Positions 57,886 to 63,301 of a stretch of DNA of 64,000 bases are shown one piece after another. Source of the DNA: Pseudarthrobacter oxydans (GTDB lineage: Bacteria; Actinomycetota; Actinomycetes; Actinomycetales; Micrococcaceae); assembly GCF_013314975.1 (NCBI RefSeq), contig NZ_JABTYH010000025.1, positions 1-64,000 of the forward strand, given 5' to 3'. Below the pieces are notes generated by a model, which was given only the letters and a program-made list of their open reading frames with translations, was not told the DNA's origin and made no database searches. The first letter of the stretch is position 1; each line of letters opens with the position of its first letter. The position numbers were made by a program, and so were the translations under genes.

Positions 57886-58512
57886 TCACTTCCCCAAGGT
57901 GGAAAGCCCGTAAAGCCGGAGGATGGCGAGGGCTCTCTTTGAATCTCCTGTTTCCACCACTCGGCGCACCCACTGGATACGGGGACGGTACGCAAAGATC
58001 TGGAACCGCGAAGTCATGAGCGCGTCATAGAGGAGGTTGAAGTACGGGGCCACCTGCCGGCGCATGTTTTCCATCCCGACCTCTGCCAGCACCAAGCCCT
58101 GTAGGAGTCCGGCGGCATGTTCCACCAGGCGCAAGACGGGGGTGGGCAGATGATGGCCGCCTACGGCATAAGCCGACGCCATGTCGTCTGAAAGGTCTGC
58201 GATTTTTTGCAGGCACGCAGCATTGTGCAGGTCTACATATTCCTGCATCGCGGCCCGCGCATCTTCCGGGACGCTCAGGAGCACGTCCGGCGCCATTCCT
58301 TTGCGCGTTTCAATCATGATGGCCCGCACGACCTTGACGATCTCCATGCGGTCTTTGGCCTGCTGAGAGAACTTCTCGTTCCTCACCTGCAGCCTGGGTT
58401 TTAGAAAGAAGTCAACGAGCAGAGCAACCAAGGCGCCAGCCCCGGCGGTGCCCAACACTGTCCATATGTTCCAAGCAGGAGCGGCGGCGGCCGCAGCTTC
58501 GGCAGGGATCAC
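57886..58512 (-). CDS. Single-span membrane protein in the lysogeny arm
   Basis: This 208-residue protein has one membrane segment near residues 14-36 and then a helical cytoplasmic domain (K-D-R-M-E-I-V-K-V-V-R-A-I-M onwards) with no recognised motif. GTG 58512 overlaps the integrase stop by 4 bases, so it is translationally coupled to int. It lies between attL and int, where phages often carry accessory (moron) genes such as superinfection exclusion or host-protection proteins. No homologue is recognised and the role is open. Confidence 0.65.
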   Translation of the reverse strand: MIPAEAAAAAAPAWNIWTVLGTAGAGALVALLVDFFLKPRLQVRNEKFSQQAKDRMEIVKVVRAIMIETRKGMAPDVLLSVPEDARAAMQEYVDLHNAACLQKIADLSDDMASAYAVGGHHLPTPVLRLVEHAAGLLQGLVLAEVGMENMRRQVAPYFNLLYDALMTSRFQIFAYRPRIQWVRRVVETGDSKRALAILRLYGLSTLGK

Positions 58513-59705
58513 GCTCCCCCCGCAACTTCCCCGAAGGCCTGCAGAAGCTCGGTCATATCAGGCGCCTCGTGCGTCTTTTGGACGTAGTGCCGGCTGGTGA
58601 TCTGCTCGCTGGAGTGACCCAGCTGGGCGGAGGCTGAGGCCATGCCCTCGGCTTTGGCCAGGAGCGTGCCCACAGACTTCCGGAACGTGTGGGGAGTGAC
58701 CCACTGGAAGCCGATCTCGTACCGAGCGGACCGCCACTGCTTCCGGAAGTTGCCCGGATCCCGCAACGTGCCGGTGGACGACGGGAAAACGACGTCCCAC
58801 GGATTCGCGACGAGCTGCTGTACTTGGCGCCGGAGGAGCATCTCCACTGCGAACGGCGGCAGGTAGTAGCGCTGGCGTGAGTTGGTGGACTTGGGATGCT
58901 CCTGAATCGTCATTCCCTCCCCCTTCACGTAGATGACCGTGCCAGTGACGGTGAGCGTCGGTCTGGCGGCCTTCAGGTCGATGTCCTTCCAGCGGACAGC
59001 CAGTGCTTCGCCTATCCGGGCACCGGTGGCGAGCATGACGTCCACAACGTCCAAGAGGTCGTCAGGACGCTTGCGGCCGCGGGGTTGCGACGACTCCTGC
59101 CACTGCCGGAGGCCGGCACGCAGGGCGGCCGCTTCCTCCACGGTCAGGGCGCGGACTTCCTTACGGCTCACGGGCACCTTGGCAACGTCGCGGAGGGGGT
59201 TCGCGGAGACCGCGCCGTGCCGGGCTGCGAGGCCCAGCATGGCCGACAGTACCGTCTTTGCCAGCTTCGCCGTGGCGCTCCCGTGCTTCGCCGTCGTGGC
59301 CTTCAGGAACCGATCCAGGCGGGAAACAGTGGCCTCGCGGATGGTCAGGCCGCCAACGCCAGGGATTACGTACGAGTCCATAACCTCCCGGTAGCGCCGC
59401 TGCGTGTTGATGGCCCGGTCCTGATCCATAAACTCAAGCCACCAGATCTCCCCCAGCTTATTCAGGCGCGTATCAGGGGTGATGTCATCCCCGGCCGGCA
59501 TCGCCCGATCCCGCAGGGCTGCTATGAGGGCCTGCTCCGCCTTGGATCCACGGTCATTCTTGGAGATTGAAACGGCGCGGGCCTCCACCTTCCGGGTGAC
59601 GCCGTCGAAGTCACGGAACCGGGCCATGGCCCGCCACACGCCTGGCGTGACCTCGTCGCGGCTGATCTTCCCCCAAGTGCCGATCTGCAGCGGCGGCCTA
59701 GGCAT
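58509..59705 (-). CDS. int: Tyrosine recombinase (phage integrase)
   Basis: This site-specific recombinase of about 398 residues has the full C-terminal catalytic set: Arg in G-A-R-I-G-E near 231, H-T-F-R near 337, L-G-H-S near 362 and the nucleophile Tyr in R-H-Y-V near 372. The N-terminal half carries the SAM-like core-binding domain. ATG 59705 is preferred, as AGGGGG lies 9 bases upstream; ATG 59714 is the next in-frame choice. Its start overlaps the repressor stop by 8 bases. It would act on the tRNA-Arg site to its left. Confidence 0.93.
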   Translation of the reverse strand: MPRPPLQIGTWGKISRDEVTPGVWRAMARFRDFDGVTRKVEARAVSISKNDRGSKAEQALIAALRDRAMPAGDDITPDTRLNKLGEIWWLEFMDQDRAINTQRRYREVMDSYVIPGVGGLTIREATVSRLDRFLKATTAKHGSATAKLAKTVLSAMLGLAARHGAVSANPLRDVAKVPVSRKEVRALTVEEAAALRAGLRQWQESSQPRGRKRPDDLLDVVDVMLATGARIGEALAVRWKDIDLKAARPTLTVTGTVIYVKGEGMTIQEHPKSTNSRQRYYLPPFAVEMLLRRQVQQLVANPWDVVFPSSTGTLRDPGNFRKQWRSARYEIGFQWVTPHTFRKSVGTLLAKAEGMASASAQLGHSSEQITSRHYVQKTHEAPDMTELLQAFGEVAGGA

Positions 59706-60183
59706 CTTTGCCATCCCCCTGCCCGCCGACGTCGTCGAGCTCAAGCAGGAAAGCTGCGTGCTTGGTGGTGTCCTCGATCTTCTGCAGATCTTCCTTGAGT
59801 GCGGCCGTCAGTGCCGGCATGCCTTGAAGCGTCATCCGAAGCTTTGAGTAGACGCGCCGTAGCTGCTCGTCGTCCACGCCGCTGGTATCGAGCCGGCTGC
59901 CGAAGTCGGGCGCAAAGGCGTAGGCGTCGCTGATGCGTATAGCCTCGCCCTCCGAGGAGGTGAAGAGGTATTGAACCTGACACCCCAGAACGCTTGCCAA
60001 CGCCATGACCTCCGCGGCCACGAATGACCGTTTGCCGCCTTCTGCCTGGGACACGGTCGACCTGGACCAGGAGGAGCCGAGGAGCATCCCCACTTCCTCG
60101 CCTAGTTCCGCCTGCGAGATACCGTTCCGCTCCCGCAACTTGCGGACGTTCTCCCCGATGAGTACTTCAATGCGTTTCGCCAT
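59698..60183 (-). CDS. XRE-family repressor (CI-like)
   Basis: The 161-residue protein has an N-terminal helix-turn-helix (about residues 8-65; R-K-L-R-E-R-N-G-I-S-Q-A-E-L-G and S-R-S-T-V-S-Q-A-E), typical of XRE/Cro repressors. A long helical C-terminal part ends it, without the Ser-Lys self-cleavage dyad seen in LexA-like CI proteins. It starts the leftward lysogeny operon, divergent from the rightward early operon with the operator region between. It is the likely prophage master repressor. Confidence 0.85.
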   Translation of the reverse strand: MAKRIEVLIGENVRKLRERNGISQAELGEEVGMLLGSSWSRSTVSQAEGGKRSFVAAEVMALASVLGCQVQYLFTSSEGEAIRISDAYAFAPDFGSRLDTSGVDDEQLRRVYSKLRMTLQGMPALTAALKEDLQKIEDTTKHAAFLLELDDVGGQGDGKDA

Positions 60184-60324: not shown

Positions 60325-60534
60325 ATGGAAGGCAAAGACACCACCCACGAGCGGCTCCTGGGAATGCAGGACATCGCAGACCGGTACGGGGTGCCCCTCG
60401 CTACCGTCCGCGGATGGCGGACAAAGAACTACGGACCCAAGGGCATTCCAATCGGGAAGTACGTCCGCCACCGACTCAGCGAATGCATCGCTTGGGAAGA
60501 AGCACAGCTGGCCAAGGCCAGCACAGCAGCCTAG
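60325..60534 (+). CDS. Small helix-turn-helix protein, excisionase/AlpA-like
   Basis: This 69-residue protein has an N-terminal HTH of the MerR/excisionase type (G-M-Q-D-I-A-D-R-Y-G-V-P-L-A-T-V-R-G-W near residues 13-31) and a small tail. It is the first gene of the rightward operon, right after the operator region, with AGGAAGGG just upstream. Such proteins act as excisionase (Xis) or Cro-like directional regulator. Which one is not decided from sequence. Confidence 0.75.
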   Translation: MEGKDTTHERLLGMQDIADRYGVPLATVRGWRTKNYGPKGIPIGKYVRHRLSECIAWEEAQLAKASTAA

Positions 60535-60887: not shown

Positions 60888-61159
60888 TCACCATGATGAC
60901 CGCAGCCCCCGACCCGCTCCCCGCCGAACCCACCACCGCGGACTTCCGCCGCGTCGCCGCCATCGTCACGATGAATCGTTACCGCGTGGATCCCAATTCC
61001 CTTTGGCACCAGGACGGCGTCGCAGAGAAGCTTTGGCAGGCACGCAATACGATGCCCTTCCCGGACCTCGCAGTGCTGGCCGGTGCTGTAGCCCGGGACG
61101 CCAAGTACAAGGGCCCCGGCGCCATCTACCTCGTAGCGGCAGGAGTGATCAAGCCGTGA
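60884..61159 (+). CDS. Small early protein, member 2 of the pair
   Basis: This 91-residue protein starts at GTG 60884, overlapping the previous TGA (GTGA). An in-frame ATG at 60893 is an alternative. Its core (V-A-A-I-V, Q-A-R-N-T-M-P-F-P-D-L, V-A-R-D-A-K-Y-K, and I-Y-L-V-A-A-G-V-I near the end) aligns with that of the preceding gene. No motif of known function is present. The next gene starts at GTG 61156, again overlapping the stop. Confidence 0.72.
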   Translation: MITMMTAAPDPLPAEPTTADFRRVAAIVTMNRYRVDPNSLWHQDGVAEKLWQARNTMPFPDLAVLAGAVARDAKYKGPGAIYLVAAGVIKP

Positions 61160-61890
61160 CCGCCGTGCAGCAGTTCATCTACGCCGGCAACGACGTTCGG
61201 ACAATCGACGCGGACGGGGAACCGTGGTTTGTCGCCGCCGACGTCGCCCGCATCCTCGGCTACTCCGCAACGGCCGCACTCACGCGGCGGCTCGATGACG
61301 ATGACAAGGGGGTGCGGGAGCTGCACACCCCTGGCGGCCGGCAGTCCATGGCCGTGATCTCCGAGCCCGGGCTGTTCGCCGCGATCCTCGGGAGCCAGGT
61401 AATCGGAGCAAAGGCATTCAAGCGGTGGGTCACCCATGAGGTCCTGCCAGTCATCCGCAAGACAGGCACCTACGGGACCGCGCAACCCCACACCCTCCCA
61501 CAGAGCTTCGCGGACGCGCTCCGGCAGCTCGCAGACACCCACGAGCAACTGGAGGCCGCGACGCCGAAGCTCGAGGCCTATAACGCGCTGGTGGAGGCAG
61601 ACGGCCTACTGTCCATGCAGGCCGCCGCGAAGACTCTTGGCTACGGGCCGAACATCCTGTACCGCGACCTGCGGCGCCTTGGCATCCTGCAGGGCAACAA
61701 CCTCCCCTATCAGCGCTATCTCCACCACTTCGAGGTCGAGCTGGGCAGCTACAAGAACAGGCGCGGTGAGACGGTGCCCACGACCACGACAATGGTCCGG
61801 CCATCAGGCCTGGACTTCCTCCGCCGGAAGCTCGCTACGACGGCCGAAGGGGCCACCGCGGCGGCTGAAGGGGCAGGAGCCAGGGCATGA
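61156..61890 (+). CDS. Phage antirepressor (BRO-N / KilAC type)
   Basis: This 244-residue protein has two domains: an N-terminal BRO-N domain (about residues 1-105; W-F-V-A-A-D-V-A-R-I-L-G-Y and W-V-T-H-E-V-L-P-V-I-R near 90-100) and a C-terminal KilAC/ANT-like domain (about 125-235; L-S-M-Q-A-A-A-K and Y-R-D-L-R-R-L-G-I-L). Antirepressors of this type help lytic induction by binding repressor or its operators. GTG 61156 overlaps the previous stop by 4 bases. It is followed at 61887 by a small ORF in the same tight operon. Confidence 0.85.
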   Translation: MTAVQQFIYAGNDVRTIDADGEPWFVAADVARILGYSATAALTRRLDDDDKGVRELHTPGGRQSMAVISEPGLFAAILGSQVIGAKAFKRWVTHEVLPVIRKTGTYGTAQPHTLPQSFADALRQLADTHEQLEAATPKLEAYNALVEADGLLSMQAAAKTLGYGPNILYRDLRRLGILQGNNLPYQRYLHHFEVELGSYKNRRGETVPTTTTMVRPSGLDFLRRKLATTAEGATAAAEGAGARA

Positions 61891-62074: not shown

Positions 62075-63301
62075 TTGGGTGCTGGAAACGTAGCCCTCGC
62101 ATTCGCGAACTGGGCAACGCTGGACGACCGGTCCTTCCGCGTCCTGTGCCGCATGGCCCTCGTGTCCATGGACAACGGGAACCCGCCCCGGTACTTCGCC
62201 GGCCGCGACGACCTGGCAGCAGCCCTGGGCAAGCCCCTCCCTGCCAAGCCCGAGGAGGACGACGTCAGCGCTGCAGCTGAAGCAGCCAGAAAAGCCCGGG
62301 CCAGCGTCTACGAGGTGGTGCGGAAGGCAGTAGCCCGGCTGGTGAAGGAAGGCGTCATCGTCTCCAGCGGGGATGCCCGGTTCAGGAGCCGTGCCGAGTA
62401 CACGCTGTACCTGCACCGCAGCGGCCAGCCCCAACAAAACGTTGCCCCAGTACCCAACGAATCGTTGCCCCAACAGCCCCAACAAATTGTTGCCCCTATG
62501 CCCCAACAAAACGTTGCCCCATTGGCCCAACAGATCGTTGGTACAGGCCCAACAGATCGTTGCCCCCTAGGAGTAGAGGAACCACTAAAGGAACAACTCA
62601 TAGGAATACCAGCAGGAACCAATCCCGGCATGACCCTTGAGTCACCTAAGCAATTGGAGGCAAAGCAGGGAGAGATAGAAATCGATCTCCCTGCAGAAAG
62701 AACTCCCTCGTCCAAAACAGCACTGGCAAGACAGCTCGCTGAGGACTTCCAGGACTGGTACGCCATCTATCCCAAGCACGTCGGCCGGGGCGCTGCAGTG
62801 AACTCCTACAACAGGGCCCGGAAGAACGGCGCCACCCCTGAAGAACTCATCAACGGAGCACGGCGCTACGCAGCAGAGCGCAAAGGCCAGGACCCCCAGT
62901 ACACGGCAGCCCCGGCCACCTGGCTCAACCAGGAGCGCTGGACTGACGATCCGGACCACCTCGGAGAGATCGACGTCGACGCCATACTCGGCAAGGACTA
63001 CTGGACCCCAGGCCCGCCCCCCGCAGGGCTCAGTGTCGCGGAAGAGATCGGCTGGAAGAAAGAACAGCGGGCCCTCCGCAACGCTGCACGGCTCGAAGAA
63101 GCCAAAGCCAAAGCATCCTCAGCCAATCTCTCCCCTTGGGACCCCGCATACCACCAAGCCAAGCCTTCCGTTGAAGACAAGATGCGAGCCACTATGGCCG
63201 CCGGCCAGCGCCTACAGGCTCAAACCGGTGCCGTGCCGCGGCAATACCAATGGTGCAACCCTCCCCGCGAAATCGAAGCCCCAGAACAGGAGTCAGCATG
63301 A
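62075..63301 (+). CDS. Phage replication initiator-like protein (carries iteron origin)
   Basis: The 408-residue protein has an N-terminal winged-helix-type region (A-N-W-A-T-L-D-D-R-S-F-R-V-L-C onwards, about 1-105), a Gln/Pro-rich middle (110-180), and a C-terminal domain with D-W-Y-A-I-Y-P-K-H and A-T-W-L-N-Q-E-R-W near 225-290 seen in phage replication proteins. TTG 62075 follows GGAGG at 9 bases. The gene contains the six-repeat iteron array. By analogy with lambda O, the N-terminal part could bind those repeats and organise replication. Confidence 0.75.
   Translation: MGAGNVALAFANWATLDDRSFRVLCRMALVSMDNGNPPRYFAGRDDLAAALGKPLPAKPEEDDVSAAAEAARKARASVYEVVRKAVARLVKEGVIVSSGDARFRSRAEYTLYLHRSGQPQQNVAPVPNESLPQQPQQIVAPMPQQNVAPLAQQIVGTGPTDRCPLGVEEPLKEQLIGIPAGTNPGMTLESPKQLEAKQGEIEIDLPAERTPSSKTALARQLAEDFQDWYAIYPKHVGRGAAVNSYNRARKNGATPEELINGARRYAAERKGQDPQYTAAPATWLNQERWTDDPDHLGEIDVDAILGKDYWTPGPPPAGLSVAEEIGWKKEQRALRNAARLEEAKAKASSANLSPWDPAYHQAKPSVEDKMRATMAAGQRLQAQTGAVPRQYQWCNPPREIEAPEQESA
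62432..62562. repeat. Six palindromic 13-mers, probable phage replication origin
   Basis: Six copies of CAAC-N5-GTTG (consensus CAACRRAWCGTTG) start at 62432, 62455, 62480, 62504, 62528 and 62550, a period of 22-25 bases, about two helical turns. Most are followed by CCCC. They lie in the Gln/Pro-rich part of the replication gene but are not kept in reading frame, so selection is on the DNA. A relatively AT-rich segment follows. Confidence 0.8.
62565..62720. other. AT-richer stretch next to the iterons (possible DNA unwinding element)
   Basis: After the last repeat the sequence becomes richer in A and T than the surrounding phage DNA (A-rich runs around 62575-62620 and 62680-62720). In iteron-type origins such a segment is the usual opening site. 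The boundaries are estimated by eye. Confidence 0.4.

Follow-up and report, generated by a model that had tools for sequence, protein, structure and literature searches.

The window, by which we mean the whole 64,000-nucleotide stretch that was analysed, carries toward its downstream end a gene of 408 codons with a TTG start, whose product matches phage replication initiation proteins and whose coding sequence contains an array of six short palindromic repeats. The features on which the argument depends, and the genes upstream of them, are as follows.

58509-59744, minus strand: tyrosine integrase (Pfam PF00589, 1.5e-15; phrog_1, 4.2e-51).
59698-60183, minus strand: Cro/CI-type repressor (PF13560, 5.3e-10; PF01381, 5.4e-8).
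60325-60531, plus strand: excisionase-like HTH protein (phrog_66, 7.8e-8).
61156-61887, plus strand: anti-repressor with Bro-N and KilAC/ANT domains (PF02498, 2.1e-21; PF03374, 1.2e-18; phrog_130, 5.6e-61).
62075-63301, plus strand: replication initiator gene, TTG start, 408 aa (phrog_270 replication initiation protein, 1.5e-23).
62075-62428, plus strand: putative N-terminal winged-helix-like DNA-binding domain, residues 1-118 (alignments A1 and A2, AlphaFold2 model).
62297-62347, plus strand: predicted recognition helix, residues 75-91 (model helix 66-91; column scan, partial Mantel test).
62432-62444, no strand assigned: iteron 1, CAACAAAACGTTG (exact site match).
62455-62467, no strand assigned: iteron 2, CAACGAATCGTTG (exact site match).
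62480-62492, no strand assigned: iteron 3, CAACAAATTGTTG (exact site match).
62504-62516, no strand assigned: iteron 4, CAACAAAACGTTG (exact site match).
62528-62540, no strand assigned: iteron 5, CAACAGATCGTTG (exact site match).
62550-62562, no strand assigned: iteron 6, CAACAGATCGTTG (exact site match).
62567-62620, plus strand: second repeat element, a candidate unwinding element (AGGA repeats in a local GC dip).
62714-62956, plus strand: C-terminal domain, residues 214-294 (phrog_270, phrog_9327 and phrog_9474; 83 phage records by tblastn).

Further downstream on the contig, a tape-measure protein is encoded at 69579-72683 (phrog_13339, 5.3e-183; 1,034 aa, matched to a profile of 2,156 positions), together with DNA-binding proteins, a MazF-like toxin and a PHROG 3678 protein. 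The first-pass annotation placed the locus in an actinobacterial prophage, and the element carries an integrase, repressor, anti-repressor and tape-measure gene; but among the 9 + 9 ORFs scanned, which are part of the element's total, none matched a head or packaging gene at an E-value of 0.001 or better, and the word prophage may therefore claim too much. A satellite-like or decayed element is just as likely. For a satellite to supply its own tape measure would be unusual. No helicase gene follows the initiator among the window genes scanned. The MazF-like growth inhibitor (phrog_1936, 1.2e-6) lies at about 67209-67607 of the contig (L189:9210-9605). Among related elements, a tape-measure-like gene is also found downstream of rep in G146 (L196) and, weakly, in G138 (L192, 3e-7); G009 and G161 have at the corresponding side of rep genes of 908 and 955 aa that match no PHROG, beside which lie weak minor-head/neck and minor-tail or fibre matches, those to minor-head and neck proteins in G009 falling in a small protein.

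The initiator itself appears to consist of two domains. The PHROG 270 match (1.5e-23) covers residues 82-312, and phrog_9327 and phrog_9474 also match the C-terminal domain, at residues 207-294; no Pfam family scores above its cut-off anywhere in the 408 residues. The C-terminal domain is common to many phage initiators and probably recruits the replisome. The N-terminal domain was modelled with AlphaFold2 (mean pLDDT 72.9), which predicts helices at residues 3-12, 18-30, 44-50 and 66-91 and renders the wing region poorly, with pLDDT below 50 at residues 100-110 and 112-120. Foldseek returned no match to this model below 0.001, and a sequence search of the PDB was empty. A structural second look gave best Z scores of 5-6.5, a weak range that may mean only a common arrangement of helices; these weak matches include a plasmid initiator (4pta) and the N-terminal domain of DnaD (Z 5.5), both of which are winged-helix proteins.

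As first reported, the array comprises six exact 13-bp copies of CAAC-N5-GTTG, beginning at 62432, 62455, 62480, 62504, 62528 and 62550 (spacings of 23, 25, 24, 24 and 22) and spanning 62432-62562, that is, 357-487 nt into the gene at 62075-63301. Each copy is palindromic, with strict arms of 4 bp on either side of a 5-bp centre. Five of the six copies have CC on both flanks, which does not lengthen the dyad. The 64-kb window holds no site beyond these six, and 100 shuffles yielded a mean of 1.03 and at most 4. When the gene was permuted synonymously 20,000 times, 11,848 permutations contained no site, 6,896 one, 1,192 two, 61 three and 3 four, and six sites never arose; since no permutation exceeded four, the array is evidently constrained as DNA, as the first-pass annotation had held. 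Its further statement that the repeats are not in one reading frame is right, copy 2 (PNESLP) and copy 6 (PTDRCP) occupying the other two codon phases, but copies 1, 3, 4 and 5 share a phase (QQNVAP, QQIVAP, QQNVAP and QQIVGT). With four of six copies in frame, the DNA-level argument is carried by the synonymous test and not by the frames alone.

A whole-protein search found some match in 23 of the 206 genomes of the genus, and matches to the N-domain alignment occurred in 12 of 206 genus, 21 of 395 family and 14 of 396 order genomes, sets that overlap. No relative of the full-length window protein was found in IMG/VR or the genome collection, and nothing matching its N-domain in phages (50,697 records), plasmids or IMG/VR. 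Twenty-nine genus and family loci and 12 order loci were examined; five further order loci, L073-L077, are the same genes as L017, L034, L035, L039 and L038. Among close relatives, L002 keeps six exact CAAC-N5-GTTG sites, L003 and L006 five each and L007 three, or four to six in each if slight mismatches are allowed, the second site being missing from L006 and L007. L009, whose N-terminus is 38-45% identical, has five exact sites. In more distant relatives the site sequence differs and the architecture is kept: 6-bp half-sites, a 5-bp centre and a position in the linker after the domain.

To score such arrays we used a dyad finder that presupposes the 5-bp centre and allows gaps of 20-27. Arrays of 6-5-6 bp dyads scored above all 30 of their own synonymous nulls in 22 of 28 same-domain genes, the window included; the six that did not are L007, L010, L048, L049, L065 and L068. 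Another 13 of the 41 loci, outside the 28 put to the dyad finder, have only one or two copies (order loci L060-L064, L067, L069, L071 and L072; family and genus loci L046, L047, L050 and L057), and most of these frames end soon after the N-domain. An earlier, cruder finder that was blind to dyads placed 15 of the 29 genus and family loci above all 60 nulls. In the 23 loci with a dyad-finder score of 20 or more, 80 of 82 centre-to-centre gaps measure 22-25 bp; a score of 20 was reached by 284 of 840 nulls and is not significant by itself, so we rely on each locus's own nulls. In L068, which is not above its dyad-finder nulls, seven repeats like GGTGCAC-CGTC-GTGCACC are spaced 33/22/23/33/22/23, as if a block of three copies had been duplicated.

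We used the differences among these sites to look for alignment columns that predict how half-sites differ after correction for overall similarity (19 loci, 88 columns). Residues 80 and 83, both in the predicted recognition helix and occupied in the window protein by E80 and R83, rank first and second of the 88. The eight-residue helix block gives a partial r of -0.72, reached in 0 of 20,000 permutations, and other eight-column blocks go no lower than -0.20 in the main run and -0.24 in any of three runs. For the main column scan five window-type rows were cut to two and the outlying centres of L035, L037 and L044 were omitted; a repeat without hand trimming, on the strongest arrays only, gave the same result. 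Within the E80 class alone, where residues 80 and 83 are invariant, the partial r is -0.61 (1 of 5,000). E80 is accompanied by C at half-site position 6, and R/K80 by G; at position 4, genes of the E class pair K/Q84 with A and R84 with C. Thus CAAC accompanies the helices SAEEVYRK (L009) and SAAEVFRK (L042), which have E-V-x-R-K in common, and CACC accompanies NAQEQ(Y/F)RR (L016, L019) and SAAEQFRR (L039, L041), which have E-Q-x-R-R in common; L035 and L038 fit the trends poorly. A tree puts L042 with L039-L041 (support 85/84) and does not resolve the position of L009, L016 and L019, though L009 and L019 are 85% identical. It offers one well-supported independent pair for position 6 and two for position 4, all of which agree, in a test that is underpowered; when every one of the 19 rows is used, an average of 1.5 of the 2 position-4 pairs agree and 0.1 are opposed. 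Base labels for these pairs were set by hand, and the tree does not include L010; the position-6 test was run without L035, L038 and L045, and the position-4 test without L038. Shared ancestry may therefore inflate the result of the Mantel permutations.

The first-pass annotation had proposed that relatives keeping the protein while losing the repeats would speak against its reading; the outcome favours it. Genes with the same N-domain (L002, L003, L006, L007 and L009) retain exact sites, and where the N-domain has been exchanged the sites are gone. From residue 194 on, L004, L005 and L008 are 77, 68 and 60% identical to the window protein; their N-terminal domain is different, and instead of CAAC-N5-GTTG, each of them has a different repeat, present four times at 21-bp intervals and in one codon phase. 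In L027, whose N-terminus also differs from the window's, CCAGACCTACCAC recurs at intervals of 22-23 bp, in two phases. The converse case is L010, in which the window's type of N-domain is joined to an O-like C-terminal part (phrog_391, 3.2e-23), although the array of L010 does not exceed its nulls. Judging from these swaps in gene sequence, we conclude that the array goes with the N-domain as a single module and that the C-terminal part is a second one.

L011, L012 and L013 have in common with the window protein only a tail like 'GEIDVDAVLG...EEIAWKKEQR' (56-70% identity to residues 296-366), and since the resemblance is confined to the tail, it seems that tails are exchanged too; L012 is another type of initiator, with a phrog_3171 N-terminus and an O-like domain. 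A 595-aa frame at L002 (G009:C96) contains a second, diverged copy of the C-terminal domain, 41-46% identical to window residues 222-314. Two C-terminal peptides, like PWxx(Y/F)H and VPxQYxWAN, recur in 11 and 9 of 42 genes; the carriers (the window protein, L002, L003, L004, L006, L008, L010, L018, L020, L021, L023, L028 and L087) include initiators with other N-domains and L010 with its other C-terminal domain. These patterns were written after sight of the sequences, and in 1,536 neighbouring open stretches they hit only four of these same genes. Possibly the peptides are a docking motif for a host replisome protein.

Arrays also occur in some phage initiators that share the C-terminal domain. 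Sixteen of the 83 phage records that share this domain were fetched; by the finder, used here without a null, six (Cupello, PhluffyCoco, Galaxy, Abidatro, D_HF5_3 and EBPR podovirus 2, the last two being records without a cultured host) have three or more regularly spaced copies, and ten have no clear array. The ten include MrSmee, CheeseTouch, Dardanus and Catfish, in all four of which the next gene is annotated as a helicase. In Cupello and PhluffyCoco four copies stand every 22 bp, out of frame. The repeats of Arthrobacter phage Cupello (L089), PhluffyCoco (L101), and Galaxy and Abidatro (L088 and L100), spaced by 22 bp in two or three codon phases, lie in genes annotated as replication initiation or HTH proteins and are followed by GAACC(G/A)TCC repeats 11-13 bp apart in three phases. 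Among IMG/VR loci with this C-terminal domain (the best 80 of 488), 17 had too little coding sequence before the domain; three or more copies were present in 18 of the 63 testable genes, against 19 of 2,520 shuffled. Those 18 include near-copies and amount to about 13 distinct cases, and two of them, L121 and L129, were equalled by 5 and 8 of their own 40 nulls.

Directly after the array lies a second repeat element that the first-pass annotation had not listed. In the window AGGA stands at +13, +21, +33, +46 and +58 from the last iteron centre, a spacing of 8-13 bp (mostly 10-13 bp across loci), and the 60 nt behind the array have a GC content of 0.47, down from 0.68 in the domain. Over 23 loci, five of which are close relatives and a few of which have outlying centres, the 60 nt after the array average 0.52 GC against 0.65 in the domain (Wilcoxon 4.8e-7). 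The AGGA motifs are conserved even where the iterons differ: in 23 loci AGGAA occurs 49 times against 14.9 expected (maximum of 300 nulls, 23) and TAGGA 13 times against 0.8. Positions within one base of +13, +23, +35 and +47, chosen after sight of the data, hold AGGA in 52 of 92 cases against 20.5 expected and 28 at most; L042, L045, L048 and L049 have none there. In 19 other initiators, which have their own arrays and other N-domains, the same place is enriched for AACC: 15 of them contain it, and the total of 41 occurrences compares with 19.5 expected and a maximum of 26. The AGGAA and AACC words are not among the top twelve in a control stretch 120-195 nt downstream. Six near-copies were dropped from the k-mer test and L005, L100 and L101 were not included; L088/L089 and L004/L008 remain in it as related pairs. 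In an 8-mer tandem-repeat test three copies were reached by 17 of 51 loci, near-copies included, against 3.7 expected. The window's own second element has two copies in that test, a number matched by 35 of 100 nulls and not significant, and for this reason our case for the element is built on the family-wide k-mer and position tests. A pattern for the element, which does not fit the window's own variant, matched in three of 204 genus genomes, twice in known family genes (L022 and L009) and once at an unrelated site, L211, which directly follows the stop codon of a frame outside the family.

We read the AGGA stretch as a candidate for the place of DNA unwinding; alternatively, a host factor may bind there, or the conserved peptide around 'RSTEEPLEE' may account for part of the constraint. 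Unwinding elements that contain repeats have been described in RK2, F, oriC and lambda (PMC4081077). A bolder reading combines this element with the co-variation described above: helix residues E/R80, V/Q81, R83 and K/R84 would set the half-site in a readable code, and a second signal independent of the iterons (AGGA(A/G) here, AACC after the arrays of unrelated phage initiators) would be read by a conserved partner, probably as a single strand during opening. We offer it tentatively and consider it rather more apt to fail than to hold. If it were true, each protein would carry its own target within itself, and the pair could switch in steps or by domain exchange.

Taken together, these observations argue that the segment is a lambda-type intragenic replication origin of an integrated element, served by an initiator of a non-O family, a reading to which we assign a probability of roughly 0.87. 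We are more confident still that the six repeats are the binding array for the gene's own protein. The array and its constraint as DNA, its linkage to this N-domain, its co-variation with the predicted recognition helix, the GC dip and the second repeat are shown here. In the mechanism we envisage, the six 13-bp dyad iterons would each be occupied by an N-domain dimer that recognises the CAAC half-site through the helix around E80-K84, and several bound dimers, on sites 22-25 bp apart, would form a nucleoprotein complex. That complex might strain the adjoining, less GC-rich AGGA stretch (62567-62620) so that the strands open there, after which the C-terminal domain would bring in the host helicase or its loader, the segment then being the start site in vivo. 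The linker peptide need only be flexible, and it would therefore be free to carry the origin. No DnaA-box-like site lies near the array, the one match within one mismatch being at 70229.

Iteron arrays often also regulate, and the strongest competitor of an origin is that the sites are operators, which the protein would bind only to shut off transcription of its own gene by a roadblock, the origin lying elsewhere. The binding logic predicted from the co-variation of helix and site is identical for the two roles. We nevertheless judge this explanation unlikely, as the sites begin 357 nt inside the gene, no exact copy exists upstream of it or elsewhere in contig bases 58,000-75,757, the array is followed by a GC dip and a second repeat, and the known origin of lambda has the same layout. 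Less probable again is that the array serves packaging, partition or incompatibility of a satellite-like element and is not a replication start: an integrase, repressor, anti-repressor and tape-measure gene without a recognised head or packaging gene in the scanned ORFs would suit such an element, but the array lies in a member of replication-initiation gene families, and the Galaxy and Cupello arrays, of other sequence, sit in genes annotated as replication initiation proteins. That the repeats are coding repeats only, in a proline- and glutamine-rich linker grown by tandem duplication, is hardly credible, for although four of the six window copies encode QQxV in one phase, the 21-bp repeats of L004, L005 and L008 keep one phase, and so do the arrays of L045 (above its nulls in the dyad finder only) and L048 (above its nulls in neither finder), two window copies lie in other phases, the L036 repeats occupy all three, 50 of the 82 gaps in the 23 loci are not multiples of three, and six sites were never reached by synonymous permutation.

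If a lambda-type origin is the correct reading, origins can be predicted to the base pair in a group of actinobacterial mobile elements; the titles and abstract openings searched describe no intragenic iteron origin in phages of Arthrobacter or other actinobacteria. Predicted origins of this sort would give small vectors for Arthrobacter-type hosts. The family also provides a matched protein-DNA set, about twenty related DNA-binding domains, for each of which the probable target stands a few dozen bases further along the same gene, and this makes a change of initiator-origin specificity without loss of function directly testable. The specialist's interest will lie in that matched set of helices and sites and in the second element. 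An intragenic origin is a known kind of arrangement; the initiator family is new.

Among systems already described, iteron plasmid origins of the RK2, P1 and F type consist mostly of non-palindromic direct repeats bound by monomers (PMC5043065), and we set this type aside, the window repeats being dyads. The second element is another matter: like the direct repeats of RK2 oriV and the 13-mers of E. coli oriC, it has repeats of about 12-13 bp beside initiator sites (PMC4081077), but its core is AGGA(A/G), it lies in coding DNA of a high-GC element, its spacing is looser, and single-strand binding is putative. In the PLE RepA proteins of Vibrio satellites the DNA-binding domain co-varies with the origin and the C-terminal part is conserved, much as here, whereas their origin is intergenic and their domain family is RepA_N (PMC8263062). 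The PHROG 270 proteins of Arthrobacter, Gordonia and Mycobacterium phages share the C-terminal domain, and some have out-of-frame arrays of their own; they differ in N-domain and iterons, and most of the 16 fetched lack a clear array. A study of mycobacterial RepA presumes cis sequences within or next to repA and, in the regions it examined, did not identify repeats (PMC7157519).

The closest parallel is the lambda origin inside gene O, which the first-pass annotation had already invoked and which our comparison supports in place, spacing and dyad geometry. Profiles of both window domains (A2 and A5) found no match to O, even with filters off. In lambda the annotated iterons begin at offset 348 of gene O, after the N-terminal domain, with spacings of 20, 24 and 23 in three codon phases; the same repeat finder recovered them and, in the same run, the window array from offset 355. 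Both arrays have 6-bp arms around 5 bp, copies 20-24 bp apart in lambda, more than one codon phase, and the centre AAAAC, found in lambda iteron 1 (TCCCTC-AAAAC-GAGGGA) and in window iterons 1 and 4. Lambda has four iterons with the half-site TCCCTC, the window six with CCCAAC in an actinobacterial host. Lambda iterons bind O dimers and adjoin a 40-bp A+T-rich region (PMC5043065); the window's flank, a possible counterpart, is only relatively A+T-rich, at 47% GC in 60 nt against lambda's 23% in 40 nt and 32% in 60 nt. In a lambdoid origin, iteron changes that left the O protein unaltered abolished plasmid transformation (PMC7466680).
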